Part shown: positions 8,732-22,579 of the stretch, in pieces
Layout: each line of letters starts with the position of its first letter
How positions within the stretch are numbered: position 1 is the first letter of the stretch
Assembly: GCF_007004665.1 (NCBI RefSeq)
Contig: NZ_ML660060.1
Location: 1 to 64,000, forward strand
Reading direction: 5' to 3'
DNA: 64,000 nucleotides
Origin: Denitrobaculum tricleocarpae
GTDB lineage: Bacteria; Pseudomonadota; Alphaproteobacteria; Kiloniellales; Kiloniellaceae
The notes under the pieces: generated by a model
Database searches by the model: none
What the model was told of the DNA's origin: nothing
Seen by the model: only the letters and a program-made list of their open reading frames with translations
Made by a program: the position numbers and the translations under genes

Positions 8732-8768
8732 GGGGAAAACTCCAGTGATGATTTTGGCTCGCGGTGCC

Positions 8769-8828
8769 GGGGCCCATGGTTTGGGGGCTCATGGTTTCGG
8801 GGCTCATGGTTTCGGGGCTCATGGTTTT
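8769..8828. repeat. Four tandem 15-bp repeats (GGGGCTCATGGTTTC)
   Basis: Four head-to-tail units begin at 8769, 8784, 8799 and 8814; the two central ones are identical and the outer ones differ at one or two bases. A partial fifth unit follows. They lie between the MFS and LysR genes, upstream of the MFS start. The unit is a multiple of three, and on the minus strand each unit reads M-S-P-E-T, but that frame does not join the MFS frame. Confidence 0.85.
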
Positions 8829-8885
8829 GGGGCGCGAGCCGTGATTGACCGGAGTCTAGGAAGGTTCTATAAATCAAGAAAGAAT

Positions 8886-8904
8886 ATTAATGTGAAATAT
8901 TAAT
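8886..8904. promoter_or_regulatory. Candidate LysR-type operator
   Basis: Two ATTAAT hexamers separated by 7 bp form a T-N11-A dyad typical of LysR recognition sites. It lies 22 bp before the LysR start codon in an AT-rich divergent promoter region, so binding could control both the LysR gene and the MFS gene. Assignment is by position and motif shape. Confidence 0.45.
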
Positions 8905-8926
8905 CAGAAAAAATGATGAAATAATC

Positions 8927-9790
8927 ATGCGCCCCGATCTGAACATCGACCTGCTGCGCTCCTTCAACGCCGTGGCCGAGACGCGGCACTTCACCCGCGC
9001 CGCCGAGCAACTGAACTGCGCGCAGTCGGCGGTCAGCATGCAGGTCAAACGGCTGGAGGCGATTGTCGGTGTGCAGCTCTTCGAGCGCTCCAAGCGCATC
9101 GTGAAGCTGACCGAAGAAGGCGAGATCTTTCGCCGCTACGCCAACCGCATGCTCTGTCTGAACGATCTGACACTGGCGGCCTTCGGGCGCAACGCCCTGC
9201 AGGGCCGGGTCCGTTTCAGTGCGACCGACACCTCCATGTGCTTCCTGCCGGCGATCCTTTCCCGCTTCGCCCAGAGCTGTCCCCTGGTGGAGTTGGAGAT
9301 CCGTTGCGAGCGCAGTTGGGAGGCGCTGGACTCCCTGCAGGCCGGTGAAACCGATCTCGCGCTCGTGACCCAGCCCTGCGGACGCAAGGGCGGCCAGCTG
9401 GTCAAGCGCGAAGCCCTGGTCTGGGCGGTCGCGCAGGGGGCGTCGGTCGAAGAGCTGGACCCTCTGCCGTTGGCGATCTTCGGTCCTGGCTGCATCTATC
9501 GTAAAGCGGCTTTGGCTGCGCTCGACGACTGCGGCCGGCGCTGGCGCCATGCCTATAACAGCGAGAGCCGGGACGGCCTCAACGTGGCTGTTGCCGCCGG
9601 TCTGGCGGTCACCGTCGTCCCGGTCAGCGCCCTGACTCCGAACCTGCGTGTGCTCAGCCCGGACGAGGGTTTCCCGCCGCTGCCGGAGATCGAAATCCTG
9701 CTTTTCGAAGCCAGCAGCGAAGCCGCCCTGCCGGTCGCAACCTTTGCCCGCACCATCGAGCAAACGCTGGCGGATAATCCCGCCCGATGA
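8927..9790 (+). CDS. LysR family transcriptional regulator
   Basis: A 287-residue LysR regulator. The N-terminal winged helix-turn-helix is clear (LLRSFNAVAETRHFTRAAEQ, then SAVSMQVKRLEAIVGVQLFE), followed by a linker helix and the two-lobed effector domain. The effector domain is slightly short but complete. It is divergent from the MFS transporter, and by the usual logic of the family it probably regulates that gene in response to the transported compound. A dyad with LysR-box spacing lies just upstream. The effector is unknown. Confidence 0.92.
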   Translation: MRPDLNIDLLRSFNAVAETRHFTRAAEQLNCAQSAVSMQVKRLEAIVGVQLFERSKRIVKLTEEGEIFRRYANRMLCLNDLTLAAFGRNALQGRVRFSATDTSMCFLPAILSRFAQSCPLVELEIRCERSWEALDSLQAGETDLALVTQPCGRKGGQLVKREALVWAVAQGASVEELDPLPLAIFGPGCIYRKAALAALDDCGRRWRHAYNSESRDGLNVAVAAGLAVTVVPVSALTPNLRVLSPDEGFPPLPEIEILLFEASSEAALPVATFARTIEQTLADNPAR

Positions 9791-9800
9791 GGGAGAGGCG

Positions 9801-10346
9801 CTAAAGCAGGTTCGCTTTTTTCAGGTTCCGCGCCCTGGCCCTGACGGAGGCAGTGGGGTCCTCCCCGGCCTTCGTGAGCAGGGTTGCCGCTGTTTCCTTG
9901 AGGCCTGTATCCCGGTGCGCCAGACGGCAGAGGGCGTCGAGTGTCCAGGCGCGCAGGAAAGGACGCTTCGCTTTGTGCCAGGGCGTGATGATGTCTGCCA
10001 ACCGCCGGGCGTTCAGGTCTTCGCTTCCGATGAACTGGACGCTCTGGGCGATGTGCAGTTGGGCCTCCCAGGCGGTTTGCGCGGTGGCGGTCTCAATGAA
10101 AGCCTCGCAGTGCGCGGCGGTCATTTCGGCGCCCAGCTTCAGCAGTTTGCGCAGCGCCCAGGTGGCGGCGATTTGCAGGCGGGTGTCTTCACTAGCCGCG
10201 AGTTCGAAGAGGCGCGCGAAGCCGGTGAAGTCCGGGCCAACCGCCTTGCAGGCGGCCTCCAGTGAGCCGGTGGTCTTGCCGTCGAATTCCAGGACCCGTT
10301 CGACGACTGCGTTTTCGAGGGCGCCGACTCTGGACTGACGCGACAT
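9801..10346 (-). CDS. HEAT/ARM-like helical repeat protein
   Basis: A 181-residue, almost wholly alpha-helical protein with paired helices such as DTRLQIAATWALRKLLKL and AKRPFLRAWTLDALCRLA, and ending in DPTASVRARARNLKKANLL. This pattern is typical of HEAT or PBS-lyase-type repeats, which act as scaffolds. There is no signal peptide. Its ATG lies 2 bp after the stop of the PLP enzyme gene on the same strand, so the two are cotranscribed. The 3' end converges on the LysR gene with a 10 bp gap. No specific partner can be named. Confidence 0.65.
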   Translation of the reverse strand: MSRQSRVGALENAVVERVLEFDGKTTGSLEAACKAVGPDFTGFARLFELAASEDTRLQIAATWALRKLLKLGAEMTAAHCEAFIETATAQTAWEAQLHIAQSVQFIGSEDLNARRLADIITPWHKAKRPFLRAWTLDALCRLAHRDTGLKETAATLLTKAGEDPTASVRARARNLKKANLL

Positions 10347-10348
10347 CT

Positions 10349-11323
10349 TTACGCCGGCAGGCTGATGCCGTCGGAGCCGGAGCCGCAGGCGATGGTGGCG
10401 ATCAGGGCGTCGTCGGGCAGGTCGACTTTGCTGGCCGCGAGCTTGCCCGCCTGAATGGCGGCGAGGGAAGCGGCGCCGGAGAGTTCCGCGCCCACACCCA
10501 TCTCAAACCAGAGCCATTGCGCCGCTGAGCGCATTTCCTCGTCGGTGACCAGGACGATGTCGTCGACATGCTTACGGATGATGTCGAAGTTCGGCTGGGC
10601 GCTGCGGCGCGGGGCGAGTGTGCCGGCCTTTGTGCTGATCTCGGAGAGGGTGATTAATTCGTCGGCCTTGACGCTCTCATAGAGGGTCGGCGCGCCGACG
10701 GCCTCCACGCCGATGATCTTGATCTCCGGCTTGATGGCTTTGGCCGCCGTGGCGATGCCGGAGATCAGCCCGCCACCACCGATGGCGACGACGATGGCAT
10801 CCAGATCGGGAGACTGTTTCAGCATCTCGACCGCCATGGTGCCCTGTCCGGCGATGACCGCCGGATTGGCGAAGGCATGTATGTAGGTCAGGCCGTCGCG
10901 CTCCGCCCGCGCCAGGGCCGCTTCATTGGCGTCGTCGTAGACCGCGCCCTCGATCACCACTTCCGCGCCCCAGGCCCGCAGCTTTTCCGCCTTGGCTTCA
11001 GGAGTTGAGCTGGGCAGGTAGATGACCGCCTGCGCGCCCAGGGACCAGCCCGCGTAGGCCACGCCCAATCCGTGGTTGCCACCGGATGCCGTGATGATGC
11101 CGCGCTTCAAGTCCGCCGCGCTGAGCTGCAGGGCCGCGTTCATGGCGCCGCGCGGCTTGAAGGAGCCGGTGACCTGCAGGCATTCCAGCTTGACCATCAT
11201 GGGATTGGGGGCCGGTTCCTCGCGGATGAAGCGGGTCCTGAGCAGCGGCGTGCGGCGCACCCGGTCCTTGATGCGGGCAAAAGCGCCCTGGATGTCGTCG
11301 AGGGTAACGGGCGTAGTGGTCAT
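10349..11323 (-). CDS. Threonine dehydratase-like PLP enzyme (fold type II)
   Basis: A 324-residue pyridoxal-phosphate enzyme of the serine/threonine dehydratase family, expected to deaminate a hydroxy-amino acid to a 2-oxoacid. The PLP lysine is Lys56 in SFKPRGA, the phosphate-binding loop is GGGGLISG, and the C-terminal ACGSGSDG closes the site. There is no C-terminal ACT regulatory domain, so it is the catabolic or short form and not allosteric biosynthetic IlvA. Similar proteins include threo-3-hydroxyaspartate dehydratase and ectoine-utilisation EutB, so the exact substrate is open. The ATG at 11323 has AAGGA upstream; in-frame starts up to 11359 would add 12 residues of non-family sequence. 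Confidence 0.85.
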   Translation of the reverse strand: MTTTPVTLDDIQGAFARIKDRVRRTPLLRTRFIREEPAPNPMMVKLECLQVTGSFKPRGAMNAALQLSAADLKRGIITASGGNHGLGVAYAGWSLGAQAVIYLPSSTPEAKAEKLRAWGAEVVIEGAVYDDANEAALARAERDGLTYIHAFANPAVIAGQGTMAVEMLKQSPDLDAIVVAIGGGGLISGIATAAKAIKPEIKIIGVEAVGAPTLYESVKADELITLSEISTKAGTLAPRRSAQPNFDIIRKHVDDIVLVTDEEMRSAAQWLWFEMGVGAELSGAASLAAIQAGKLAASKVDLPDDALIATIACGSGSDGISLPA

Positions 11324-11479
11324 GCGGTCGGGTCCTTGCTGAAGCATTAAGGCGGTCACTTGGCGTGATGATTCGGGGCGAAGAATCGCAAATGGAAAGA
11401 TGATCGAAATTCCCCGCGCCGTAAACGCCGCAGGTGACCGGCGGCGGTTCTGCCCTGACGTGATACGGGAGAGAAAACC

Positions 11480-11506
11480 CTAAACTTTTTGGCAAATCAC
11501 TAAACC
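11480..11506. promoter_or_regulatory. Candidate operator, distal pair of AGTTTAG-type half-sites (minus orientation)
   Basis: CTAAACTT at 11480-11487 and CACTAAACC at 11498-11506 are reverse complements of the AAGTTTAG and AGTTTAGTG elements found at 11649-11669. The two copies are 20 bp apart, about two helical turns, so a dimeric regulator could contact them on one face. The regulator is unknown. Confidence 0.45.
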
Positions 11507-11640
11507 AAATCCTGCCAGGAGTTGAATAGCGGGTTGCGCTAAACACCGAAATTTTGGCGCAATACAACCGAATTTTGCCCTGATTTCGAGGGATTTTAGG
11601 TGATTTTCGCAATTGATGCTGCGGTGCGGATCGAACGTGT

Positions 11641-11669
11641 TTGACAAAAGTTTAGTAATAAGTTTAGTG
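11641..11669 (+). promoter_or_regulatory. Promoter of the ABC/Dha operon overlapped by direct repeats
   Basis: TTGACA at 11641-11646 and TTTAGT at 11663-11668, with a 16 bp spacer, form a plausible sigma-70-type promoter. Two direct repeats of AGTTTAGT (11649-11656 and 11661-11668, 12 bp apart) occupy the spacer and the -10 element, the expected position for a repressor site. Confidence 0.5.
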
Positions 11670-11830
11670 TTTTTCCTGCCGACGCACAGAATGCGGCAAG
11701 AAGGGGCCGTCGGTCTGCGACGTCAGAGTCATCGCAGGTTCAGGAATATCGCCCCCGGACAATATCAACGAGAGACCGGTCCGGGCTTTGCTCGGAAGCA
11801 GAGAAACGGCGGTCTCCAAGGGAGGAAAGC

Positions 11831-13165
11831 ATGCGGAGATTTGGAGCCTGTTTGGCCGCGGCTGCGCTGAGCGTGACGGCTGTGACGGCAATGAGCACCC
11901 AGGAGGTTCAGGCGCAGGACAAGGAACTGACCCTCTGCTGGGCGGCCTGGGATCCGGCCAATGCCCTGGCCCAGCTGGGGAAAGACTTTACCGCCGAGAC
12001 CGGGATCGAGATGAACTACGAGTTCGTGCCCTGGACCAACTTTGCGGACCGTTTCATCAATGAACTGAATTCCGGCGGCAAGCTCTGTGACCTGCTGATC
12101 GGCGACAGCCAGTGGATCGGCGGTTCGGCGACCTACGGCCACTATGTCAAGCTGAACGACTTCTTCGAAAAAGAAGGCATCTCCATGGACGACTTCGCCC
12201 CGGCGACCGTTCATGCCTATTCGACCTGGCCGAAGGGGACGCCGAACTACTGGGCGCTGCCGGCCATGGGCGATGCTCTGGGGTGGGTTTACCGCAAGGA
12301 CTGGTTCGCCCGTCCGGAACTGCGCGAGGAATTCAAGGCGAAGTACGGCCACGAGCTGGAGGTGCCCAAGAACTGGGATGAAGTAAAGCACATCGGCGAG
12401 TTCTTCCAGGGCCGGGAAATCGACGGCAAAACAGTTTACGGCCTGGGGATCTATACGGAGCGCGGCTCCGAGGGCATCACCATGGGCGTGACCTCGGCCA
12501 TGTATTCCTGGGGCTTCGAATACCAGAATCCGGACAAGCCTTACGACATGCCGGGCTATGTGAACTCGCCGGAGGCGGTCGAGGCGCTGGAGTTCTATAA
12601 ATCCCTTTACGACTGCTGCACACCGCCGGGCCACTCGGATGCCTATATGGTCGCCAATCTGGACGCCTATAAGTCCGGCCAGGTCGCCATGCAGATGAAC
12701 TGGTTCGCCTTCTTCCCCGGCATCGCCAAGGATGAAGACGTGGGCGGCGACAAGTCGGGTTTCTTTGTCAATCCGGCTCAGAAGGTCGCGGCCTCCACGC
12801 TCGGCGGACAGGGCATTTCGGTGGTGGCCTATTCCGATAAGAAGGACATGGCGCTGGAATACATCAAGTGGTTCGCCAAGTCCGATGTGCAGAAGAAGTG
12901 GTGGTCCCTGGGCGGCTACTCCTGTCACGTGGATGTGCTCAACGATCCGAACTTCCCCAACACCGCGCCCTTTGCCGCGGACTTCCTGAAGGCCATGGAC
13001 GGGGTGAAGGACTTCTGGCAGGAGCCGACCTATGCCGAGCTGCTGCAATCCATGCAGAAGCGGGTCCATGATTATGTGGTTGCCGGGAACGGCACCGCGC
13101 AGGAGGCGCTCGACAAGCTGGTCGTCGACTGGACCGAAGTCTTCGAGGACGACGGCAAGCTATAG
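11831..13165 (+). CDS. ABC transporter substrate-binding protein (carbohydrate/polyol type)
   Basis: A 444-residue periplasmic binding protein of extracellular solute-binding family 1. A Sec signal peptide spans residues 1 to about 28 (ending VQA), with no lipobox cysteine, so the mature protein is soluble. The body shows the usual two-lobe pattern, with an aromatic-rich ligand region (LCWAAWDPANALAQL, WPKGTPNYWALPAMGDALGW). It is the first gene of a long plus-strand operon. GC-rich hairpins separate it from the permease genes, consistent with higher expression of the binding protein. The DhaKLM genes at the end of the same operon suggest dihydroxyacetone, glycerol or a related polyol as ligand; that is inference. 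Confidence 0.9.
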   Translation: MRRFGACLAAAALSVTAVTAMSTQEVQAQDKELTLCWAAWDPANALAQLGKDFTAETGIEMNYEFVPWTNFADRFINELNSGGKLCDLLIGDSQWIGGSATYGHYVKLNDFFEKEGISMDDFAPATVHAYSTWPKGTPNYWALPAMGDALGWVYRKDWFARPELREEFKAKYGHELEVPKNWDEVKHIGEFFQGREIDGKTVYGLGIYTERGSEGITMGVTSAMYSWGFEYQNPDKPYDMPGYVNSPEAVEALEFYKSLYDCCTPPGHSDAYMVANLDAYKSGQVAMQMNWFAFFPGIAKDEDVGGDKSGFFVNPAQKVAASTLGGQGISVVAYSDKKDMALEYIKWFAKSDVQKKWWSLGGYSCHVDVLNDPNFPNTAPFAADFLKAMDGVKDFWQEPTYAELLQSMQKRVHDYVVAGNGTAQEALDKLVVDWTEVFEDDGKL

Positions 13166-13196
13166 TCCTTCGTTTCATTGTTCGAGGCTGATTCAC

Positions 13197-13273
13197 GCTT
13201 CATTTTGAAGCCAAAGTGAAACGATCAGGCTCAAGGTGTTAAACTAGGCCGGCCGGGCAAGGACCCCGGCCGG
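13197..13273 (+). terminator. Hairpins between binding protein and permease genes
   Basis: GCTTCA/TGAAGC (13197-13211) is followed by CCGGCCGGG (13249-13257) pairing with CCCGGCCGG (13265-13273) around a 7 nt loop. There is no T-run. It likely stabilises the binding-protein mRNA 3' end or attenuates read-through; it does not look like a full stop, because the next gene of the same system starts at 13308. Confidence 0.6.
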
Positions 13274-13307
13274 TCCAGGGAACCCCTATATCTTCTGGAA
13301 GCGTTTC

Positions 13308-14270
13308 ATGACGGATCAATCCAGCGATAGTTCGGCCGAGGGTCTCACCGAACGGGTGGCGAAAGCCACGCCCGCCGCGGTCGTGCAAAAGGTGCGCGGG
13401 CTTTCCGACAGGGCGATCGCCTGGCTCTTTATTTCGCCGACGATCTTCCTGCTGCTGGCGATCAATATCTTTCCGCTGATCTGGACGGTCTATCTCTCCT
13501 TCACCAACTACCGCGCCAACCGTCCCGGGCGTCCCATCGAGTGGGTCGGCACGCGCAACTACGAGCGGCTGCTGGGCAACGAGGATATATGGGGTTACCT
13601 CCAGGCGACCGCGCACTTCGTGGTCTGGACCATGATCATCCAGGTCATCATCGGCCTGGGCCTGGCGCTGCTGATCAACCGCAATTTCAAGGGCTCGAGC
13701 TTCTGGACCACGGTGATCCTAATCCCCATGATGCTGTCACCGGCGGTTGTGGGCACCTTCTGGACCTACCTCTATCAGCCGCAGACCGGCATCTTCAGCT
13801 ACATCATCAACCTCTTCGTCTCCGTCGGGCCCATCGACATGATCGGCTCGGTCGATCTGGCGCCCTGGTCGATCATCATCGTCGATACCTGGATGTGGAC
13901 CCCCTACATCATGTTGCTCTGCCTGGCGGGGCTGCGCTCGATCCCGGACTACCTCTACGAAGCCGCCGAAATCGACCGGGCCAATGCCTGGCAGAAATTC
14001 TGGTACATCACGCTGCCCCGGATCATGCCCTTCCTGATGCTGGCGGTGCTGTTCCGCGGGATCGAGAATTTCAAGATGTTCGACATGGTGGTCGAGCTGA
14101 CCTCCGGCGGGCCGGGTTCGACCACGGAGGTGGCCTCGATCAATCTCAAGCGCGAGGCCTTCGAGAAGTGGCGGACCGGCTATTCCTCGGCCTTCGCGGT
14201 GATCCTTTTCGTCACGGTCTTCGGCCTGGGCAACATCTATGTCAAAGCCCTGAATAAGGTGAAGCAATGA
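13308..14270 (+). CDS. ABC transporter permease, carbohydrate type, subunit 1
   Basis: A 320-residue inner-membrane permease with a hydrophilic N-terminus (about 40 residues) and six predicted membrane segments. The EAA loop that docks to the ATPase is visible (EAAEIDRANAWQKFWYITLP), with the consensus glycine replaced. It belongs to the MalF/UgpA-like half of CUT1 importers. Its stop codon overlaps the start of the second permease by 4 bp (ATGA), so the two are translationally coupled. It forms the channel with the 14267 gene product. Confidence 0.92.
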   Translation: MTDQSSDSSAEGLTERVAKATPAAVVQKVRGLSDRAIAWLFISPTIFLLLAINIFPLIWTVYLSFTNYRANRPGRPIEWVGTRNYERLLGNEDIWGYLQATAHFVVWTMIIQVIIGLGLALLINRNFKGSSFWTTVILIPMMLSPAVVGTFWTYLYQPQTGIFSYIINLFVSVGPIDMIGSVDLAPWSIIIVDTWMWTPYIMLLCLAGLRSIPDYLYEAAEIDRANAWQKFWYITLPRIMPFLMLAVLFRGIENFKMFDMVVELTSGGPGSTTEVASINLKREAFEKWRTGYSSAFAVILFVTVFGLGNIYVKALNKVKQ

Positions 14271-15238
14271 GCGCCGCCATCACATCCGCCGCAACCACCA
14301 AGGCCCATTCGGTGGTCGAGAGTTCGAGCCGGGGCAAGTGGCTCGCGGGACTGCTGGTGGTCGCCTACGCGCTGATCACCCTGATCCCGCTGGTCTGGAT
14401 CCTGGCGACCAGCCTGAAGTCGCCGCCGGATTCCATTTCCTATCCGCCGAAGGTGATCTTCGAGCCGAGCCTGGAAGGCTACGTGAACCTCTTCACCACC
14501 CGCTCGCGCCAGACCGAGGAATACATCGAAAACCTGGGACCGGCGGAGACCTGGTACGACGAGATCGTGCGCAAGCGCAACATGGTGATTGTCGGGCCCT
14601 CGCGTTTCGTCGACCGCTATATGAACTCAGTGGTGATCGGTTTCGGCTCGACCTTCCTGGCGGTCTTTCTGGGGACGCTGGCGGCCTACGGCTTCTCGCG
14701 CTTTAAGGTCCCGCTGAAGGACGACCTGCTGTTTTTCATTCTCTCGACGCGCATGATGCCGCCGATCGCGGTCGCCATCCCGATCTATCTGATGTACCGC
14801 GAGCTCGGGCTGTCGGATACGGCGCTGGGCATGATCCTGCTCTACACCGCCGTCAATGTCTCACTCTCAGTCTGGCTGCTGAAGGGCTTCATGGACGAGA
14901 TCCCGCGCGAATACGAGGAGGCCGCGGTGGTGGACGGCTACACCCGTCTGCAGGCCTTCTGGAAAGTGGTGCTGCCCCAGGCCCGCGCGGGCATCGCGGC
15001 GACGGCGATCTTCTGTCTGATCTTTGCCTGGAACGAATATGCCTTCGCCCTGCTGCTGACCAGCGGCAACGCGCAGACCGCGCCGCCCTTTATTCCGATC
15101 ATAATAGGCGAGGGCGGCCTGGACTGGCCCGCGGTCGCCGCCGGCACCACGCTCTTCCTGCTGCCGATCGTCTTTTTCACCGTGCTGCTGCGCAATCAGC
15201 TTTTGCGGGGCATCACCTTCGGAGCGGTGCGCAAATGA
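14267..15238 (+). CDS. ABC transporter permease, carbohydrate type, subunit 2
   Basis: A 323-residue MalG/UgpE-like inner-membrane permease with six membrane segments. The EAA loop reads EEAAVVDGYTRLQAFWKVVLP. The first periplasmic loop (about residues 65-125) is longer than in MalG-type proteins and charged (RSRQTEEYIENLGPAETWYD), which may contact the binding protein. It overlaps the genes before and after it by 4 bp each, which ties its translation to both the first permease and the small membrane protein. Confidence 0.92.
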   Translation: MSAAITSAATTKAHSVVESSSRGKWLAGLLVVAYALITLIPLVWILATSLKSPPDSISYPPKVIFEPSLEGYVNLFTTRSRQTEEYIENLGPAETWYDEIVRKRNMVIVGPSRFVDRYMNSVVIGFGSTFLAVFLGTLAAYGFSRFKVPLKDDLLFFILSTRMMPPIAVAIPIYLMYRELGLSDTALGMILLYTAVNVSLSVWLLKGFMDEIPREYEEAAVVDGYTRLQAFWKVVLPQARAGIAATAIFCLIFAWNEYAFALLLTSGNAQTAPPFIPIIIGEGGLDWPAVAAGTTLFLLPIVFFTVLLRNQLLRGITFGAVRK

Positions 15239-15459
15239 ACCAGGGAACGCAACAGAGTGAAGCATCACAAGGGGTGGCCCGTTTCTTCAAGCCCCGCTTC
15301 TTCAAACGAGGCCCCTGGGAGAACTTTGCGACCCTCCTCATCGCGCTGGGCATCTTCATGCTGATGCAGCCCTTCTCGATCGATCTCTTCGGCTATTCCT
15401 TCGCGGTGATCCTGACCGGTACGGTCGGCTTCGTCATCGTCAGTCATTTTCCGGAGTAG
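15235..15459 (+). CDS. 74-residue two-pass membrane protein of the ABC importer operon
   Basis: A small protein with a charged N-terminus (about 30 residues) and two hydrophobic segments (about 33-48 and 53-70). The start ATG overlaps the second permease stop (ATGA). It sits between permeases and ATPases, the place held by the DUF2160-type small membrane protein in rhizobial glycerol importers, although the sequence here is not obviously DUF2160. Position and coupling suggest an accessory subunit of the transporter; the mechanism is unknown. I see no enzymatic motif. Confidence 0.75.
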   Translation: MNQGTQQSEASQGVARFFKPRFFKRGPWENFATLLIALGIFMLMQPFSIDLFGYSFAVILTGTVGFVIVSHFPE

Positions 15460-15465
15460 GTGCAC

Positions 15466-16563
15466 GTGGCCGAGATTAGAATTGAAAATCTGCACAAGAC
15501 CTTCGGCGATTTTACCGCCGTGCGGGACTCGTCCTTTACGGTGAAGGACGGCGAGTTCTTCGTCATGCTGGGTCCCTCCGGCTGCGGCAAGACCACGACC
15601 CTGCGCATGATCGCCGGGCTGGAACTGCCGACCTCGGGCCGGATCTATCTGGACGGCGAGGATGTGACCAACCGGCGCGGCGGCGCGCGGGATATTGCCT
15701 TCGTGTTCCAGCTCTTCGCACTCTATCCCCATATGAACGTGCGCAAGAACATCTCCTTCCCCCTGCGTATGGAGGGACGGCCCCGCAAGGAGATTCGCGA
15801 ACGCACGGAGGAGGTCGCGCGCATGCTGCAGATCGATCACCTGCTGGACTCTCCGGTGGGCGGGCTTTCCAGCGGCGACCGGCAGCGGGTGGCGCTGGGC
15901 CGGGCCGTGGTGCGCCGCGCCAAGGCCTTCCTGATGGACGAGCCGCTGGGCGCTCTGGATGCCCAGTTCCGCGAGTTGATGTGCGAGGAACTGCGTCTGC
16001 TGCACCTGCGGGTCAAGGCGACCACGGTCTATGTGACCCACGATCAGATCGAGGCCATGTCCATGGCCGACCGTATCTGCATCATGAACAATGCTGAGGT
16101 GCTGCAGATCGGGCCGCCGTCGGAGGTCTATGCTCGGCCGGCGACGCGTTTCGTGGCGGGTTTCGTCGGCTCGCCGGCCATGAACTTCATCGCGGGCGAA
16201 GGCGGTCTGGAAGCCGGCAGCGAGGCGGTGCAGGTGCGCGGTTCGCGCATCGCCATTCCACGTCTGCACGAGGACCTGACCTCCCCGGAAGCGATCCTGG
16301 GGGCGCGCCCCGAGCATATTCGGATTTCCGATCAGGGCGCACTGCGCGGACGGGTCTTCGCGGTGGAATACATGGGTACGCGGCAGCTGATCACGGTCGA
16401 TACGGACTCCGGCCGCCTGCGCGTGCGGGCGCCCAATACGGTGCGGGTCAGTGACGGCGAAGCCGTCGGCCTGGATTTCGACTCCGAGAAGATCGTTGTC
16501 TTCGATTCCCGCACCGACCGGGCGGTCGCCAGCGCGCTGCAAGCGGGAGGTCAGCGTGGCTGA
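15466..16563 (+). CDS. ABC transporter ATP-binding protein, carbohydrate type, subunit 1
   Basis: A 365-residue ATPase of the MalK/UgpC group. Walker A is GPSGCGKTTT, the Q-loop is AFVFQLFALYPHM, Walker B is FLMDEPLGALDA, and the H-loop is YVTHDQ. A C-terminal TOBE/OB regulatory domain follows. The signature motif is unusual: LSSGDRQRV where LSGGQ is expected. That site completes the ATP pocket of the partner subunit, so the two sites of the heterodimer are probably unequal. GTG 15466 (with GGAG at 15453) gives the typical MAEIRIENLHKTF opening; GTG 15460 is an alternative. It overlaps the second ATPase gene by 8 bp. Confidence 0.9.
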   Translation: MAEIRIENLHKTFGDFTAVRDSSFTVKDGEFFVMLGPSGCGKTTTLRMIAGLELPTSGRIYLDGEDVTNRRGGARDIAFVFQLFALYPHMNVRKNISFPLRMEGRPRKEIRERTEEVARMLQIDHLLDSPVGGLSSGDRQRVALGRAVVRRAKAFLMDEPLGALDAQFRELMCEELRLLHLRVKATTVYVTHDQIEAMSMADRICIMNNAEVLQIGPPSEVYARPATRFVAGFVGSPAMNFIAGEGGLEAGSEAVQVRGSRIAIPRLHEDLTSPEAILGARPEHIRISDQGALRGRVFAVEYMGTRQLITVDTDSGRLRVRAPNTVRVSDGEAVGLDFDSEKIVVFDSRTDRAVASALQAGGQRG

Positions 16564-17611
16564 GATCGCACTTCAAGCCATATCCAAAAGCTTCGGGAGC
16601 ACCCGGGCGGTCAAGGATCTCGACCTGACGGTGCGCGACGGCGAGTTCGTGGTGCTGCTGGGGCCGACCGGGGCGGGCAAGACCACGACACTGCGGCTGA
16701 TCGCGGGCCTCGAAAAGCCGGAGGCGGGGCGGGTATCCATCGACGCTATGGACGTCACGGAAACCCCGACCTCCGCCCGCAACGTGGCCTTCGTGTTTCA
16801 GCAGTACTCACTCTATCCGCACTACAGCGTTCTTGAAAACCTGGCTTTTCCCCTGAAAGCACCGGGCCAGGATCTGAGTGCGGAAGAGATCGAGGCACGG
16901 GTGCGGGAGATCGCCGAACTGCTGCGCATCGATCACAAGCTGGAGAACCGCGCCACGGCCCTGTCCGGCGGCGAAATGCAGCGGGTGGCCATCGGACGGG
17001 CCCTGGTGCGCAATCCGACGGTCTTTCTGATGGACGAGCCTTTGTCTTCGCTGGATGCCAAGCTGCGTGAGGACCTGCGGGTAGAGCTGAAGCGGATTCA
17101 GCGGGACCTGGGTGCGACAATTGTCTACGTGACCCATGACCAGCTTGAGGCTATGACCCTGGCGGACCGGATCGGCGTGCTCGACGAGGGCGAGCTGGTA
17201 CAGATCGGCGACCCGCGTGAAGTCTATGAGACTCCGGCGAGCGTCTATGTGGCGCAGCGGCTCGGCAGTCCGCAGATCAATCTGCTGGCGGTGGGCATGC
17301 TGGACCTGCCGTCGGTTCCACCCTCTGCCACGACCCTCGGGGTCCGGCCCGAAGACATCGTTCTGGACCAAGGTGAAGGCGCGCTCGCCAGGGTGATCAA
17401 CGTGGAGCATCTGGGCGTCGAGACGGTGATTCTGCTTGAACTGGCGGGGCAACACCTGCATGCCCTGCTCGGCGATGCCGCCAGCCTGGAAGAGGGCGCG
17501 GAGATTTCCATCAGCGTGCGGGAGGGCGCGGCGCTGTTTTTCGATACAAACGGCAAACGCGTCGATTTGGTCACGGCAAGCGCGCGTGAGGAGGCGGTTT
17601 ATGGAACCTGA
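16556..17611 (+). CDS. ABC transporter ATP-binding protein, carbohydrate type, subunit 2
   Basis: A 351-residue ATPase paired with the previous gene product to energise import. Walker A is GPTGAGKTTT, the Q-loop FVFQQYSLYPHY, the signature LSGGEMQRVAIGRAL, Walker B FLMDEPLSSLDAK and H-loop VTHDQ, all near consensus. A C-terminal TOBE-like domain spans about 235-351. Start GTG 16556 has GGGAGG upstream and overlaps the previous gene; longer in-frame starts would run through the coding sequence of the previous gene. Its end overlaps the DhaL start by 11 bp, which physically links transporter and kinase genes. Confidence 0.9.
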   Translation: MAEIALQAISKSFGSTRAVKDLDLTVRDGEFVVLLGPTGAGKTTTLRLIAGLEKPEAGRVSIDAMDVTETPTSARNVAFVFQQYSLYPHYSVLENLAFPLKAPGQDLSAEEIEARVREIAELLRIDHKLENRATALSGGEMQRVAIGRALVRNPTVFLMDEPLSSLDAKLREDLRVELKRIQRDLGATIVYVTHDQLEAMTLADRIGVLDEGELVQIGDPREVYETPASVYVAQRLGSPQINLLAVGMLDLPSVPPSATTLGVRPEDIVLDQGEGALARVINVEHLGVETVILLELAGQHLHALLGDAASLEEGAEISISVREGAALFFDTNGKRVDLVTASAREEAVYGT

Positions 17612-18209
17612 GACAATCAAGGCGCTGATCCGCCGGACCCACGAGGTCATTCTGGCGCATGCGGAAGAGCTGACCGATCTGGATCAGGCGATCGGCGACG
17701 GCGATCACGGGATCAACATGAAGCGCGGTTTTGACGCCATTGCCGCGGCGGCGGACGCCATCGCAGAGCTGCCCTGCGGGAAGGCGCTGGAGAAGGCCGG
17801 TATGACCCTGGTGATGTCGGTCGGCGGCGCGTCCGGGCCGCTCTACGGCTCGCTGCTGATGGCCATGGGCAAGGCGATGCCCGAGGCACCGGATTCGGTC
17901 GGTGATATAGCGAAAGCCTTTCAAGCCGGCGTCGAGGCGGTGATGAAGCGCGGCAAATCCGAGGGCGGCGAGAAGACCATGCTGGAGGTCCTGCTGCCGG
18001 TCGCGACGTCCTTGAAAGACGCCGGCGCGTTGGATATCGGCGTGCTTCGCAAAACCGCTGACGCGGGCCTGGCCTCGACAAAGGATATGAAGGCGACCAA
18101 GGGTCGGGCGTCTTTTCTGGGCGAGCGCTCCATCGGGCATCTCGACCCCGGCGCGCGTTCTTCCGCGCTGCTGATCCACGCTGTTTGTGACGTAATCGAA
18201 GGTAAGTAA
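17601..18209 (+). CDS. dhaL: Dihydroxyacetone kinase, ADP-binding subunit DhaL
   Basis: A 202-residue DhaL subunit of PTS-dependent dihydroxyacetone kinase. It holds a tightly bound ADP, which is rephosphorylated by DhaM and donates the phosphate to dihydroxyacetone on DhaK. The Mg-nucleotide aspartates are in DLDQAIGDGDHGINMKRG, the helical-barrel glycine motif is SVGGASGPLYG, and the C-terminal GERSIGHLDPGARSS is typical. ATG 17601 lies inside the end of the ATPase gene (11 bp overlap); longer in-frame extensions are shadow of that gene. DhaM follows after 4 bp. Confidence 0.95.
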   Translation: MEPETIKALIRRTHEVILAHAEELTDLDQAIGDGDHGINMKRGFDAIAAAADAIAELPCGKALEKAGMTLVMSVGGASGPLYGSLLMAMGKAMPEAPDSVGDIAKAFQAGVEAVMKRGKSEGGEKTMLEVLLPVATSLKDAGALDIGVLRKTADAGLASTKDMKATKGRASFLGERSIGHLDPGARSSALLIHAVCDVIEGK

Positions 18210-18213
18210 GGCT

Positions 18214-18603
18214 ATGTCGGATTTTGTTGGCATCGTAATCGTGTCCCACTCGCCGAACGTCGCCAAGGGCACGGCGGATATGGTGCGGGAGATGGTCGGG
18301 GATGAGGTGAAGGTCGCCTACTGCGGCGGCAACGCCGACGGCGGACTGGGAACCGACGTGGCCGCCATTCATGGGGCGATCGATTCGGTCTTCGGCGCGC
18401 AGGGCGTAGCGGTTCTGGTCGATCTGGGCGGCGCGGAAACCAATAGCGAGATGGCGATCGAAATGATGGACGAAGAGCGTCAGAAGGCGATTGTGATCTG
18501 CAACGCGCCGATTGTGGAAGGCGCGGTGATGGCGGCCACGGAAGCGGCGGGCGGCGGCAGCCTGGACGAAGTGCGCGCGACTGCGGAGGAATTTCTGTCA
18601 TGA
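18214..18603 (+). CDS. dhaM: PTS-dependent dihydroxyacetone kinase phosphotransferase subunit DhaM (EIIA-like only)
   Basis: A 129-residue DhaM. It carries only the EIIA-mannose-like domain, with the phospho-accepting His12 in VIVSHSPN, and ends there. In E. coli DhaM this domain is fused to HPr-like and truncated enzyme-I-like domains; here these functions are the separate genes that follow. Phosphate passes PEP, enzyme I, HPr, DhaM, DhaL-ADP. The start has no overlap with DhaL, but the stop overlaps the HPr start by 4 bp. It is a confident call from the motif and the context. Confidence 0.93.
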   Translation: MSDFVGIVIVSHSPNVAKGTADMVREMVGDEVKVAYCGGNADGGLGTDVAAIHGAIDSVFGAQGVAVLVDLGGAETNSEMAIEMMDEERQKAIVICNAPIVEGAVMAATEAAGGGSLDEVRATAEEFLS

Positions 18604-18914
18604 GCGAACTGCCTGCTGAATCTTCCGATGCGAAGGAAGCGTTGGCGAGTGGAGCGGCGACGATCCAGGACCCCACGGGGCTGCATGCCCGTCCGGCGGT
18701 CAAGCTGACCAAGCTCGCCAAGGCTCACGACGCCACGATCGAGATCCGCGCAGGCGAGGAGGGCAAGTGGGTCAATGCCAAGTCGCCCAACGCGGTGATG
18801 AAACTGAAGGCCGGCAGCGGTGAAATTCTTTTCGTGCGGGCACAGGGTGCGCAGGCCGACGAAGCCGTGAAGGCTTTGGTTGCCCTGATCGAGCGGGATT
18901 TCGAAGCTGAATGA
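18600..18914 (+). CDS. HPr-family phosphocarrier protein with N-terminal extension
   Basis: A 104-residue HPr. The phosphorylation site is His29 in DPTGLHARPA (His15 in canonical HPr). The serine region is also kept (NAKSPNAVMKL, Ser62 matching Ser46), so regulatory phosphorylation by an HPr kinase is chemically possible; no kinase gene is in the window. About 14-18 residues at the N-terminus (SELPAESSDAKEALASG) have no counterpart in classical HPr. Translation is coupled to dhaM through an ATGA overlap. Most likely it is dedicated to DhaM phosphorylation and not to global PTS. Confidence 0.92.
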   Translation: MSELPAESSDAKEALASGAATIQDPTGLHARPAVKLTKLAKAHDATIEIRAGEEGKWVNAKSPNAVMKLKAGSGEILFVRAQGAQADEAVKALVALIERDFEAE

Positions 18915-18937
18915 CGGCCGCTTTTTTTTGATGCCTG

Positions 18938-20551
18938 ATGAGGACCATGACTGAGACTTCGCAAGAGCGCATTCTGAGCGGATTTGCCGCGTCCGACGGC
19001 CTTGTGGTGGGCCGTGCCGTGCGGCTCGTCTCAACCGCGGAACTGCAACGCCTGGCAGGCTCGCCGGAGGAAGAGCGCAGCGTCCTCGCGGGCGCCATCA
19101 CGCGCGCCACGGAAGAACTCGAGGCGCTGGCCGAAACGCAGGACGAGATGGGGGCCGGGATTCTGGAGTTTCAAACCGCGCTGCTCGAGGACGAGGACCT
19201 GCTGGCGCCGGTCTATGCGGCCGTCGAGGCGGGGCAGCCCGCGGATCAGGCCTGGATCAGGATCATCGACGGCGAGGTCACCGAATACCGGGAAGGCGAG
19301 GACGATTATTTCAAGGCGCGCGCGGACGATCTTCTGGACCTCAAGGAGCGCGTGCTGGCGGCGCTGCACGGCAGGGAGACGGCGCAGGTTAAGCTGGATG
19401 GGGACATCATCATTGCCCGGGACCTGACGCCCTCGCGCTTTCTGGAACTGGACTGGAGCCTCTATCGGGGTGTTGCGGTCTGCGGCGGCAGTCCAACCAG
19501 CCACGTGGCGATTCTGGCCCGCGCGCGCGGCGTTCCGCTGGTGGTTGGATTGGAGGACGCGCTCGAGACGCTCCAGGAAGCCTGTCCCGCCGTGCTGGAT
19601 GCCGAAAGCGGGCGTCTGATCCTGGCACCGGAGTCCGCAACCCTGGAAGCCATCGGGCGGCGTTTGCGCGCCCGCGAAGCCGACGATGCGGCGGCGGAGT
19701 CTTTGCTGGGCGAGCCGGCGGTCACGGCGCAAGGCGAGCGGATCGAGATCCTGATCAATGCCGATGACCCCAAGGTCCTGGCCGAGGTTCCGGTCGCGAA
19801 CTGTGACGGGATCGGCCTGACGCGCACCGAGTTCCTCTTCAGCGACGGTGCGCTGCCCGACGAGCAAAAACAGTTTGAGGTCTACCGCGATCTCATGACC
19901 TGGGCGGAAGGGCGTCCGGTGATCGTCCGCACCCTGGACGCGGGGGGAGACAAGCCGATCCCCGGTGTCACGGTCGATGACGAGAGCAATCCCTTTCTGG
20001 GTTTGCGCGGTGTCCGCCTGTCGCTTCTGAAGCCGGAGGTCCTGAAGCTGCAGCTGCGCGCGTTGGCCCGGGCCGCGGCGCTGGGGCCTTTGAAGATCAT
20101 GATCCCCATGGTGACCGTGCCTGAAGAAGTGGAGGCGGTGCGCGCGCTGCTTGAGGCCGCTCTGTCCGAACTCACGGCCGAGGGGGTTGCGCATGCCCGC
20201 CCGCAGCTTGGTATGATGGTCGAAGTTCCGGCCGCCGCTTTGACGGCGGACCGCTTCAAGGTGGATTTTTTCTCGATCGGCTCCAATGACCTCATTCAAT
20301 ACACCACGGCCTGCGCGCGGGATAATGCGGCGGTGACCAGACTGGCGGATGCTAGAAATCCGGCGGTTCTCGAACTGATCGGGCGGACGATCGAGGCGGC
20401 GGCGCGTATGGGCGTGGAAGTCAGTCTCTGCGGCGACATGGCCTCCGACCCGCATCACATTCCGGCGCTGCTGGAGCGCGGTCTGCGGCGTCTTTCGGTC
20501 GCGCCCGCGCAGGTGGGGCGGGTCAAGCTTGCGGTGCGGCGTTATGGCTGA
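18938..20551 (+). CDS. PTS enzyme I (PEP-protein phosphotransferase)
   Basis: A 537-residue enzyme I that autophosphorylates from PEP and hands phosphate to HPr. The active His, about residue 189, is in GGSPTSHVAILARARG. PEP-binding segments are GLTRTEFLF, RTLDAGGDKP, FFSIGSNDLIQYTTA and SLCGDMASDP. There is no N-terminal GAF domain, so it is the carbohydrate-type enzyme and not the nitrogen-type PtsP. The length is a little under the usual 570. Two ATGs (18938, 18947) are possible starts; GAGGA sits between them, so the start is uncertain by three residues. The end overlaps the next gene. Confidence 0.93.
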   Translation: MRTMTETSQERILSGFAASDGLVVGRAVRLVSTAELQRLAGSPEEERSVLAGAITRATEELEALAETQDEMGAGILEFQTALLEDEDLLAPVYAAVEAGQPADQAWIRIIDGEVTEYREGEDDYFKARADDLLDLKERVLAALHGRETAQVKLDGDIIIARDLTPSRFLELDWSLYRGVAVCGGSPTSHVAILARARGVPLVVGLEDALETLQEACPAVLDAESGRLILAPESATLEAIGRRLRAREADDAAAESLLGEPAVTAQGERIEILINADDPKVLAEVPVANCDGIGLTRTEFLFSDGALPDEQKQFEVYRDLMTWAEGRPVIVRTLDAGGDKPIPGVTVDDESNPFLGLRGVRLSLLKPEVLKLQLRALARAAALGPLKIMIPMVTVPEEVEAVRALLEAALSELTAEGVAHARPQLGMMVEVPAAALTADRFKVDFFSIGSNDLIQYTTACARDNAAVTRLADARNPAVLELIGRTIEAAARMGVEVSLCGDMASDPHHIPALLERGLRRLSVAPAQVGRVKLAVRRYG

Positions 20552-21041
20552 CCCCAAGTCCGTGAATCCCAAATCCGCCAATTCCAAATCCGCCAACCAC
20601 GGGCCTGCAAACCGGAACAGTAGCGCCTTAAAGCCCGCTGCGGATCAATCGGTCGCGACCTACAAGCAAATCCTGCGCGAATTCATCGACCGGCGGCCGT
20701 CCGGCACCCGCCAACGCATCGCCAAGGCCCTGGGCACCCACAAGAGCTTCGTCTCACAAATCACCAATCCGGCCCTGCGGGTGCCGCTGCCCGCCCCGCA
20801 TGTCGCCTCGATTTTCAAGATCTGTCACTTTTCGCCGGAAGAACGGGGTGTCTTTCTGGACGCCTACCGGATCGCGCATCCCAATCAGGCGGCGGCGCTG
20901 GAGTCCGAAGAGGTCTCCGGCAAACGCATCATCATGATCGAACTGCCGGATTTCGAGGACCCTGCAAAACAGGAACGTCTGGCCGAAGCCATTGAGGAAC
21001 TTGCCGCCAGGATGATCGCCCTGGCGCGCGATGGCGGCTGA
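20544..21041 (+). CDS. Helix-turn-helix protein embedded in the Dha operon
   Basis: A 165-residue protein. Residues 1 to about 35 are a low-complexity polar tail with repeated K-S-x-N-x-K-S units. Residues about 40-110 look like a Cro/C1-type helix-turn-helix (KQILREFIDRRPSGTRQRIA, LGTHKSFVSQITNP). A helical C-terminus (PAKQERLAEAIEELAARMIAL) may mediate dimerisation. ATG 20544 overlaps the enzyme I stop by 8 bp. Its place between enzyme I and DhaK makes it the natural candidate for controlling this operon, possibly sensing phosphorylation state through DhaK or DhaL as DhaR does; that is speculative. The family is not one I can name. Confidence 0.7.
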   Translation: MADPKSVNPKSANSKSANHGPANRNSSALKPAADQSVATYKQILREFIDRRPSGTRQRIAKALGTHKSFVSQITNPALRVPLPAPHVASIFKICHFSPEERGVFLDAYRIAHPNQAAALESEEVSGKRIIMIELPDFEDPAKQERLAEAIEELAARMIALARDGG

Positions 21042-21070
21042 CCTCTACTCACACGGGAGGAGACAACGTA

Positions 21071-22075
21071 ATGAAAAAGCTGATTAATTCCGTCGACAAC
21101 GTTTTGAACGAGAGCCTGCGGGGCTTCGGCGCGGCGCACAGCGATATCGTCTCGGTGAACTGGGAACCGAAATTCGTTCAGCGCGCGGGCGGCACAGCGA
21201 AGGGAAAGGTCGCGCTGATTTCCGGCGGCGGTTCGGGACACGAACCCCTGCATGCGGGTTTTGTCGGGCAGGGCATGCTGGATGCCGCCTGTCCCGGCGA
21301 GGTCTTCACCTCCTCCACCCCGGATCAGATGCTGGCGGCAGCGCAGGCTGTCGATGCCGGCGCAGGCGTGCTCTTTATCGTCAAGAACTACTCCGGCGAC
21401 GTCATGAACTTCGAAATGGCCGCAGAGATGTATGGCGAGATGCATGAGGGCGAACAGGCGACGGTCCTGACCAACGACGATGTGGCCGTGGAAGATTCGC
21501 TCTTTACTCAGGGACGGCGCGGGGTCGCAGGGACGGTGATTGTCGAGAAGATCGTCGGCGCCGCCGCCGAGGCTGGTGCCGATCTGGCGACCTGCAAGGC
21601 GCTGGGGGAGCGGGTCAATGCGGCCAGCGGCACCATGGGCGTGGCTCTGACCAGCTGCACCGTGCCGGCCGCAGGCAAGCCGACCTTCGAGCTGGCCGAG
21701 GACGAGATGGAGATGGGCGTGGGCATCCACGGCGAGCCCGGCCGGCGCAGAGTCAAGCTGATGGAGGCCGATGCGCTGGCCGCCGAGATGATCGAGGCGA
21801 TCTGCAAGGAGGACGGACCCAGGTCGGGCGACCCGGTGCTGCTGCTGGTCAACGGGATGGGCGGCACGCCGCTGATGGAGCTGTACCTGGTGTACGATGC
21901 CGCGCGCAGGCTTTGCGAGGAACGCGGCCTGACCATCGCGCGCTCGCTGGTCGGCGACTACTGTACCTCGCTGGATATGGCGGGCTGCTCGATCACGCTG
22001 ACCAAAGTGGGTGACGAGATGCTCGGCTACTGGGATGCGCCGGTGCACACGGCAGCCTTGAGGTGGGGCGTCTAA
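21071..22075 (+). CDS. dhaK: Dihydroxyacetone kinase, substrate-binding subunit DhaK
   Basis: A 334-residue DhaK that binds dihydroxyacetone covalently as a hemiaminal and presents it to DhaL-ATP. Key parts are GGGSGHEPLHAGFVG near residue 50, the IVKNYSGDVMNFEMA segment near 100, and the covalent His near residue 220 in GVGIHGEPGRRR, matching His218 of E. coli. The length is standard. A GGGAGGAG ribosome binding site precedes the ATG by 7-8 bp. It is the last kinase gene of the operon, and the MarR gene follows after 45 bp without an obvious terminator. Confidence 0.95.
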   Translation: MKKLINSVDNVLNESLRGFGAAHSDIVSVNWEPKFVQRAGGTAKGKVALISGGGSGHEPLHAGFVGQGMLDAACPGEVFTSSTPDQMLAAAQAVDAGAGVLFIVKNYSGDVMNFEMAAEMYGEMHEGEQATVLTNDDVAVEDSLFTQGRRGVAGTVIVEKIVGAAAEAGADLATCKALGERVNAASGTMGVALTSCTVPAAGKPTFELAEDEMEMGVGIHGEPGRRRVKLMEADALAAEMIEAICKEDGPRSGDPVLLLVNGMGGTPLMELYLVYDAARRLCEERGLTIARSLVGDYCTSLDMAGCSITLTKVGDEMLGYWDAPVHTAALRWGV

Positions 22076-22120
22076 AGGGTGTAACACCGCTTAGGTTTAT
22101 GAAGCTGGACACGGGGCTGC

Positions 22121-22579
22121 ATGAAAAGCGGGATTGCGGGAAGTGCCGAAGAGGGCGAGCAGCCGGACTACCTCCTGGAGGAGCAGATCGGCTTTATTCT
22201 GCGCGTTGCTTCCCAGAAACACGGCAGCGTTTTCGCCGATCTCATGCCCGAGGACCTAACGCCGACGCGCTTTGCGGTGCTGGCGAAGCTCAATGAAAAA
22301 GGACCTTTGCCGCAGAACGAACTCGGGCGGCAGACCGCCATGGACGTGGCCACCATCAAAGGGGTTGTCGACCGGCTTTCTGCGCGCGGCCTGATCCGGA
22401 CCCGGCCCGATCCGGATGACGGGCGCAAACACTTTGTCGAGCTGACGGAGAGAGGCGGGCAGGCGATCCGCGCGGCGATCCCCCTGGGTCTTCAGATCTC
22501 CAAAGAGACGCTCAAGCCCTTGAACATCCGGGAGCGCACGACCCTGATCCGTTTGCTGCGGAAACTCTATGGCGGCTGA
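22121..22579 (+). CDS. MarR family transcriptional regulator
   Basis: A 152-residue MarR-type winged-helix regulator. The DNA-binding core is LTPTRFAVLAKLNEKGPLPQ and QTAMDVATIKGVVDRLSARG, followed by the wing (RTRPDPDDGRKHFVELTERG). Long helices at both ends form the dimer interface. It lies 45 bp after dhaK on the same strand, so may be co-transcribed with the operon, and it converges on the VOC gene. A MarR-like palindrome centred on GCATGC lies at 23136-23159, upstream of the oxidoreductase genes, and is a possible target. The effector is unknown. Confidence 0.9.
   Translation: MKSGIAGSAEEGEQPDYLLEEQIGFILRVASQKHGSVFADLMPEDLTPTRFAVLAKLNEKGPLPQNELGRQTAMDVATIKGVVDRLSARGLIRTRPDPDDGRKHFVELTERGGQAIRAAIPLGLQISKETLKPLNIRERTTLIRLLRKLYGG

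Follow-up and report, generated by a model that had tools for sequence, protein, structure and literature searches.

Uptake of dihydroxyacetone (DHA) has been credited either to a facilitator or to the DHA kinase itself. In E. coli, the facilitator GlpF is assigned a putative part in DHA uptake (PMC6643234), and in haloarchaea and Spiribacter the DHA kinase of the phosphotransferase system (PTS) is described as the uptake system (PMC3863723, PMC3832224, PMC5496347, PMC9684190); likewise, the accessible parts of PMC5023246, PMC5496347 and PMC9684190 ascribe DHA uptake to the PTS kinase and not to an ABC importer. Passing mentions only are found in the available text of PMC3333776 and PMC3832224, and the terms dhaK, dhaL and dihydroxyacetone are absent from the searchable text of PMC4052901. 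Among the open-access literature matches listed, as far as their accessible text goes, we recognised no ABC importer for DHA, entry being credited to GlpF or the PTS kinase. Here, we describe a block of twelve genes in Denitrobaculum tricleocarpae (assembly GCF_007004665.1) that joins an ABC importer to a PTS-type DHA kinase, its phosphate relay and a small helix-turn-helix (HTH) protein. The block occupies positions 11831-22075 of the window, that is, the whole 64,000-nucleotide stretch of contig NZ_ML660060.1 that was analysed, and all twelve genes lie on the + strand in the order in which a first-pass annotation had listed them, as confirmed by NCBIfam, Pfam and open reading frame (ORF) coordinates.

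Such a cluster has been seen before. By annotation, blr3566-blr3577 of Bradyrhizobium diazoefficiens USDA110 carries the same twelve functions in the same order (PMC5017801). All twelve genes were up in a blr7984 mutant and lower in bacteroids (2016, PMC5017801), and because they are co-induced there, separate transcription of importer and kinase genes is argued against. In the accessible parts of that paper, the cluster is assigned to uptake of substances and sugars, the imported substrate is unnamed and blr3576 is a 'hypothetical protein' (PMC5017801). The Bradyrhizobium binding-protein gene is also tabulated among nodule-stage genes, again without DHA being named as substrate in the available text (PMC8632152). 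The public annotation of two further relatives is equally generic, with 'ABC transporter substrate-binding protein' or 'extracellular solute-binding protein' for the binding protein and 'hypothetical protein' for the HTH gene. The gene cluster is already known; what appears new is the assignment of its substrate from the swapping of kinases beside a constant importer.

Compared with the known DhaK-DhaL-DhaM kinases, the window has the subunits and active-site residues in common, but its DhaM is a IIA domain alone, HPr and a full enzyme I are encoded separately, and an importer precedes the kinase genes. The glycerol ABC operon, whose importer genes are known as glpSTPQUV, is alike in layout; however, it is linked to glpD and not to dha genes, its small protein differs, and its subunits are 26-35% identical to those of the window. 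A sister importer on Rhizobium/Sinorhizobium plasmids shares the layout, including an annotated small gene in the corresponding position, whereas its neighbours are annotated as oxidoreductase, mandelate-racemase-like and isomerase genes, with neither a DHA kinase nor the heptamer GTTTAGT (discussed below) in 3/3 loci. DhaR and DhaS/DhaQ are regulators of DHA kinase operons, whereas the window's HTH protein, of 165 aa and with a lambda-repressor-like model, gave no match to those kinds.

We consider it likely, on sequence evidence, that the block is an operon, complete in itself, by which a Pelagibius-type alphaproteobacterium takes up and phosphorylates DHA under an HTH regulator of its own. 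The reading is carried by the linkage of importer and kinase among relatives. A genome-contig search with the binding protein gave 183 relatives, and the analysis went on with the best 80. In an even sample of 385 genomes of the class, 21 (own genome included) matched at an E of 1e-60 or lower, and loci and flanks of the 20 others were compared. Of the plasmid records, 10 of the 51 with 60-80% identity and 3 of the 114 with less were included. The best 80, the class sample and ten plasmid loci, minus two repeats (L127 and L132, the same contigs as L047 and L080), make an orthologous set of 108 loci. DhaK and/or DhaL lie beside the importer in 98/98 loci long enough to judge, a tally of 70 from the best 80 (10 of which end before the kinase region), 18 from the class sample and 10 from plasmids; per set, this is 70/70 uncut loci, 20/20 (18/18 without the repeated contigs) and 10/10. 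The kinases, classed by tblastn score, are of three types: DhaM-containing in 56 loci (44+7+5 in the three sets), DhaL-DhaK without DhaM in 29 (24+4+1) and fused ATP-type only in 13 (2+7+4). A second, ATP-type-like kinase accompanies 11 of the 56 DhaM-containing loci; at L039, L041 and L103, DhaK was not seen beside DhaL and DhaM, and at one of the 13 fused-only loci, Hahella L054, a DhaL-DhaM-HTH-DhaK set follows ~10 kb after the ATPases. The sister importer (~44% binding-protein identity) has a DHA kinase at 0/3 loci, within 7.6-9.1 kb downstream or in the stretch upstream. Because the orthologous importer stays with a DHA kinase whatever the kinase type or phosphate donor, and the sister importer goes without, DHA is the likeliest imported substrate, a judgement drawn from gene linkage. 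The first-pass annotation had left the choice between DHA and a polyol turned into it; linkage, together with the separate glycerol operon described below, favours DHA itself.

The relay is the exchangeable part of the system. No DhaM (TIGR02364) match was found in the 12/12 Paraburkholderia/Caballeronia genomes searched (of 24 such loci) nor in a Roseibium genome, and each of these 13 genomes has one EIIA-Man match elsewhere, a protein that could act as phosphate donor for the DhaM-less DhaL-DhaK pair. These genomes rule out a private PTS as obligatory partner of the importer. The pair without DhaM in the block is seen at L093 (15644-17283) and 28 other loci, with ATP or an EIIA-Man protein as candidate donors. 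The earlier picture of self-contained import and PEP-dependent phosphorylation with a private PTS accordingly stands for the window, with its own enzyme I and HPr and the 98/98 kinase linkage, but not for the PTS part as a fixed feature of the family.

In the window, the kinase and relay components are well within their families. DhaK scores 489.4 bits against TIGR02363 (cut-off 406.25) and is the only Dak1 match in the genome; DhaL scores 225.3 bits against TIGR02365 (cut-off 138.3) and DhaM 140.5 bits against TIGR02364 (cut-off 98.25), and HPr and enzyme I lie over the TIGR01003 and TIGR01417 cut-offs, respectively. The substrate-site residues H57, D110 and H220 of DhaK are kept in 74/74 sequences. 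The aspartate cluster of DhaL (D33, D35) is kept in 87/87, DhaM H12 in 50/50, HPr H29 in 47/47 and enzyme I H189 in 48/48, window included, in alignments restricted to ORFs of 0.8-1.35x the window length. By family cut-offs and conserved residues, the block is predicted to encode a PTS-type DHA kinase (DhaKLM). A single further HPr is encoded in the genome (34 contigs, 6.44 Mb in all), at C8; it adjoins an enzyme I and genes that, by eye, look like EIIA-Man and HPr kinase. A PEP-utiliser domain is found in two more proteins. Given this other HPr and the other enzyme I-like genes, the window relay is an extra copy.

Gene order is also conserved. The six importer genes keep one order on one strand in 103/103 loci holding all six (of 108), and the full twelve-gene order is kept on one strand in 43/49 loci holding all twelve; in the remaining 6/49, dhaK is inverted or ahead of dhaL. 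Because the order is conserved to this extent, the twelve-gene arrangement is, on sequence grounds, not chance. Overlaps recur as well, between permeases A and B in 98/107 loci and between the two ATPases in 97/100 (both genes placed; three sister loci included). The overlap of the second ATPase gene with dhaL, reported in the first-pass annotation with a call for a genome-context check, is 11 bp in the window from corrected starts and recurs in 49/76 loci with both genes placed. In three Enterovibrio loci the block lacks enzyme I, while DhaL, DhaM, HPr, HTH protein and DhaK are present. Among the best 80 of 183 relatives, the nearest binding proteins are from Kiloniellaceae/Pelagibius (99% uncultured Kiloniellaceae, 97% Pelagibius sp.).

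By its Pfam domains, the importer is of CUT1 type, with an SBP_bac_1 binding protein, two BPD_transp_1 permeases and MalK-like ATPase with TOBE domain. Binding proteins are 62-97% identical to the window's, and 114 columns are invariant over 52 aligned sequences drawn from all kinase types. The predicted structure (pLDDT 87) has a sugar-binding fold, and this fold, shared with the nearest solved structures, neither supports nor excludes a triose ligand; that the protein might bind a DHA dimer is speculation. The 74-aa membrane protein encoded between permease B and ATPase 1 has no Pfam or NCBIfam match above cut-off and resembles the small protein of another importer in the same genome (prob 90, E 1.4e-6, 30 columns). 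A candidate identity as DUF2160, the small subunit of glycerol importers, was ruled out, with no Pfam match and an hhalign E of 0.14 against the genome's own DUF2160 protein; the small-subunit family appears new. The other importer has the same layout (L126, own genome C6:174000-193900, at 7855-13956), with a binding protein, two permeases 39-44% identical, two ATPases and a small membrane protein of 102 aa related to the 74-aa protein, and its adjoining genes are read as oxidoreductase, isomerase-like and amidohydrolase-like.

Several observations weigh against DHA as the substrate. Many loci are related and the counts are not independent. The ligands titled in the nearest solved structures (16-23% identity among the 50 matches listed) are di- and oligosaccharides and acarbose-type or sulfoquinovose compounds, with no trioses. 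Fused kinases at L075, L143 and L145 score best to TIGR02361 yet under its cut-off, and the DhaK of Enterovibrio L060 is under the TIGR02363 cut-off. DhaK-family kinases can act on other small ketoses. In ~10 distinct genomes, another sugar could be fed in by the product of a Gfo/Idh oxidoreductase and/or isomerase-like gene that lies 1-5 kb ahead of the importer.

These points bear on four alternatives. The first is that the importer carries another small ketose or aldehyde, such as erythrulose or glyceraldehyde, which DhaK/DhaL phosphorylate instead of DHA. Erythrulose-active members of the kinase family are known, and both the general sugar-binding fold and the sub-threshold kinases just listed would suit such a substrate, but the DhaK of the window passes the TIGR02363 equivalog cut-off, DhaK of L093 and of L138, two variants without DhaM, passes it too, and no tetrose-converting enzyme is a constant neighbour among 100 loci; we regard this alternative as unlikely. 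We judge rather unlikely, too, that a larger sugar or polyol is imported and turned into DHA by enzymes encoded elsewhere, the operon catching the DHA formed. The ligands of the nearest structures, the upstream Gfo/Idh and isomerase-like genes and the oxidoreductase, racemase-like and isomerase genes near sister importers would all fit. Against it, the DHA kinase is the only constant catabolic partner: gene clusters outside the block reach at most 35/100 loci, that one a LacI-type regulator, and no converting enzyme or dehydrogenase is a constant neighbour among these 100 loci, in which neighbour genes were named by eye from sequence and some may be shadow ORFs.

Very unlikely, in our view, is a glycerol transporter whose substrate is made into DHA by a glycerol dehydrogenase encoded elsewhere. 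The layout of two ATPases, two permeases, a small membrane protein and a binding protein is indeed common to glycerol ABC operons. However, the genome has its own glycerol operon on C1 (the regulator glpR, glpD, two ATPases, two permeases, DUF2160 and binding protein), ~120 kb from a glycerol kinase also at C1; the window block has neither a DUF2160 subunit nor linkage to glpD, and identity between the two binding proteins is 26-33% in the aligned parts. No dehydrogenase is a constant neighbour, and the genome was not searched for glycerol dehydrogenase. Given the genome's own Glp operon, glycerol was set aside as substrate. Finally, the first-pass annotation proposed that phosphorylation of HPr, DhaM or DhaL might control the transporter, which would mean gating of its ATPases. 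This proposal draws on the co-encoding of the genes and on the ATPase 2/dhaL overlap, but is highly improbable: 29/98 orthologous importers stand beside DhaL-DhaK without DhaM and 13/98 beside fused ATP-type kinases, in blocks that lack PTS genes, and the domains recognised in the ATPases above Pfam cut-offs are ABC, TOBE and OB plus an overlapping AAA model, with no extra regulatory domain.

Regulation of the DHA operon is better placed on the HTH protein than on PTS phosphorylation, and we propose, from sequence co-occurrence, that this protein acts at GTTTAGT. Two copies stand in tandem at 11650 and 11662, and the exact spaced pattern occurs once in the genome; because the reversed spaced motif, as own-genome control, gives 2 matches with at most one mismatch versus 2 for the true motif, only the exact tandem copy is telling. 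All three GTTTAGT sites of the window fall in one gap upstream of the binding-protein gene. Counted within 400 bp upstream (L057, with 44 bp upstream, excluded, and cut and complete loci counted separately), the heptamer is present in 47/49 loci with the HTH gene in the block, with 114 sites versus a shuffle mean of 1.2 and maximum of 4 (50 shuffles). It is present in 8/9 cut loci and in 1/39 loci classed complete without the HTH gene, better read as 1/38, L059 having been classed complete by length although its contig ends inside ATPase 2. The single exception is Hahella, where an HTH gene lies ~16 kb from the binding-protein gene; by record title, 24 of the 39 HTH-less loci are Burkholderiaceae. 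Because the motif had come to light in the window and been ranked with these very loci, it was then tested on others: outside the discovery set, it occurs in 5/5 loci with the HTH gene, 0/5 without it and 0/3 sister loci, some of the ten test loci coming from genera or families already sampled. A LacI-type gene is found upstream in 27/36 HTH-less versus 4/41 HTH-bearing loci (at least 2.5 kb upstream).

This proposal has its counter-evidence. Three GTTTAGT sites per 64 kb are not unusual (9/100 shuffles reach 3), and the HTH-bearing loci L053 and L073 are without an exact copy. The HTH protein has no Pfam or NCBIfam match above cut-off, HTH_31 staying under it at E 0.15; its AlphaFold model (pLDDT 81) has the lambda repressor as best solved match (prob 1.00), yet no solved structure matches at E 0.001 or better (best 0.034). 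A sigma-70 promoter scan returned no promoter-like site. The protein is probably a repressor whose operator overlaps the promoter, with activation as the alternative, and the HTH/GTTTAGT pair appears new.

Taken together, the operon would work as follows. Periplasmic DHA would be captured by the binding protein and pumped inward at the expense of ATP by two permeases, two ATPases and the 74-aa membrane subunit. By analogy with the known families, phosphate from PEP would then pass via enzyme I, HPr, DhaM and DhaL to DHA bound on DhaK, and the product, dihydroxyacetone phosphate, would enter glycolysis. The co-encoded HTH protein, sitting on the tandem GTTTAGT over the likely core promoter, would switch the operon, probably as a repressor relieved while DHA is being processed; DHA as the ligand, the repression and the signal sensed are what we infer here.

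Coordinates are collected in Table 1. The ATPase 2 start is most likely 16556 (16451 in the ORF list), and dhaL likely starts at 17601. Besides the ATPase 2/dhaL junction, genes overlap at permease A/B (4 bp), permease B/74-aa gene (4 bp), ATPase 1/2 (8 bp), dhaM/HPr (4 bp) and enzyme I/HTH (8 bp), and the gaps are 142 bp past the binding-protein gene, 0-6 bp ahead of ATPase 1, 4 bp between dhaL and dhaM, 23 bp between HPr and enzyme I and 29 bp between the HTH gene and dhaK.

Table 1. Features of the importer-kinase block and its upstream region (window positions).
Feature	Position	Strand	Basis or remark
Inverted GTTTAGT copy, upstream	11499..11505	-	motif search
TTGACA, possible -35 element beside the tandem motif	11641..11646	+	sequence
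Tandem GTTTAGT-N5-GTTTAGT, proposed operator of the HTH protein	11650..11668	+	motif search
Substrate-binding protein, 444 aa, SBP_bac_1, proposed DHA-binding	11831..13165	+	Pfam
Strong hairpin inside the 142-bp gap 3' of the binding-protein gene	13247..13275	+	z -3.6 for the 142-nt gap
Permease A (BPD_transp_1)	13308..14270	+	Pfam
Permease B (BPD_transp_1)	14267..15238	+	Pfam
Conserved small membrane protein, 74 aa, proposed importer accessory	15235..15459	+	
ATPase 1, MalK/UgpC-like	15466..16563	+	Pfam; alternative ORF start 15460
ATPase 2, MalK/UgpC-like	16556..17611	+	Pfam
DhaL	17601..18209	+	NCBIfam
DhaM, EIIA-Man domain only	18214..18603	+	NCBIfam, Pfam
HPr	18600..18914	+	NCBIfam, Pfam
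Enzyme I	18938..20551	+	NCBIfam, Pfam
HTH protein, 165 aa, proposed operon regulator	20544..21041	+	
DhaK	21071..22075	+	NCBIfam TIGR02363

Other features of the region were recorded. The gap between the HPr and enzyme I genes holds a run of eight T (18922-18929), a possible slippage site or weak terminator, and no RNA element reached Rfam gathering thresholds in 11350-22130. Directly 3' of dhaK lies a MarR-family gene (22121-22579), among mapped loci elsewhere seen only at L030, L031 and L035. A 15-bp unit is repeated in tandem (4.4 copies, 8768-8833) upstream of a gene read by eye as LysR-like. Among relatives, Gfo/Idh-like and/or xylose-isomerase-like genes stand upstream at L061, L072, L080, L130, L133, L134, L136, L137, L138 and L140.

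On balance, we lean towards the view that these ABC importers make up a family dedicated to DHA that has so far gone unrecognised. It would span alpha-, beta- and gammaproteobacteria, rhizobia as well as marine bacteria, and pair with three kinds of DHA kinase, its PTS form having a small HTH regulator of its own that acts at GTTTAGT. If the importer binds DHA, the generic annotation of at least 98 loci could give way to a named substrate, and HTH/GTTTAGT would be a candidate DHA-responsive switch. Free DHA would then repay the ATP that bacteria of soil, nodules and the sea spend on scavenging it, and bacteria would compete for it as an ordinary environmental nutrient.

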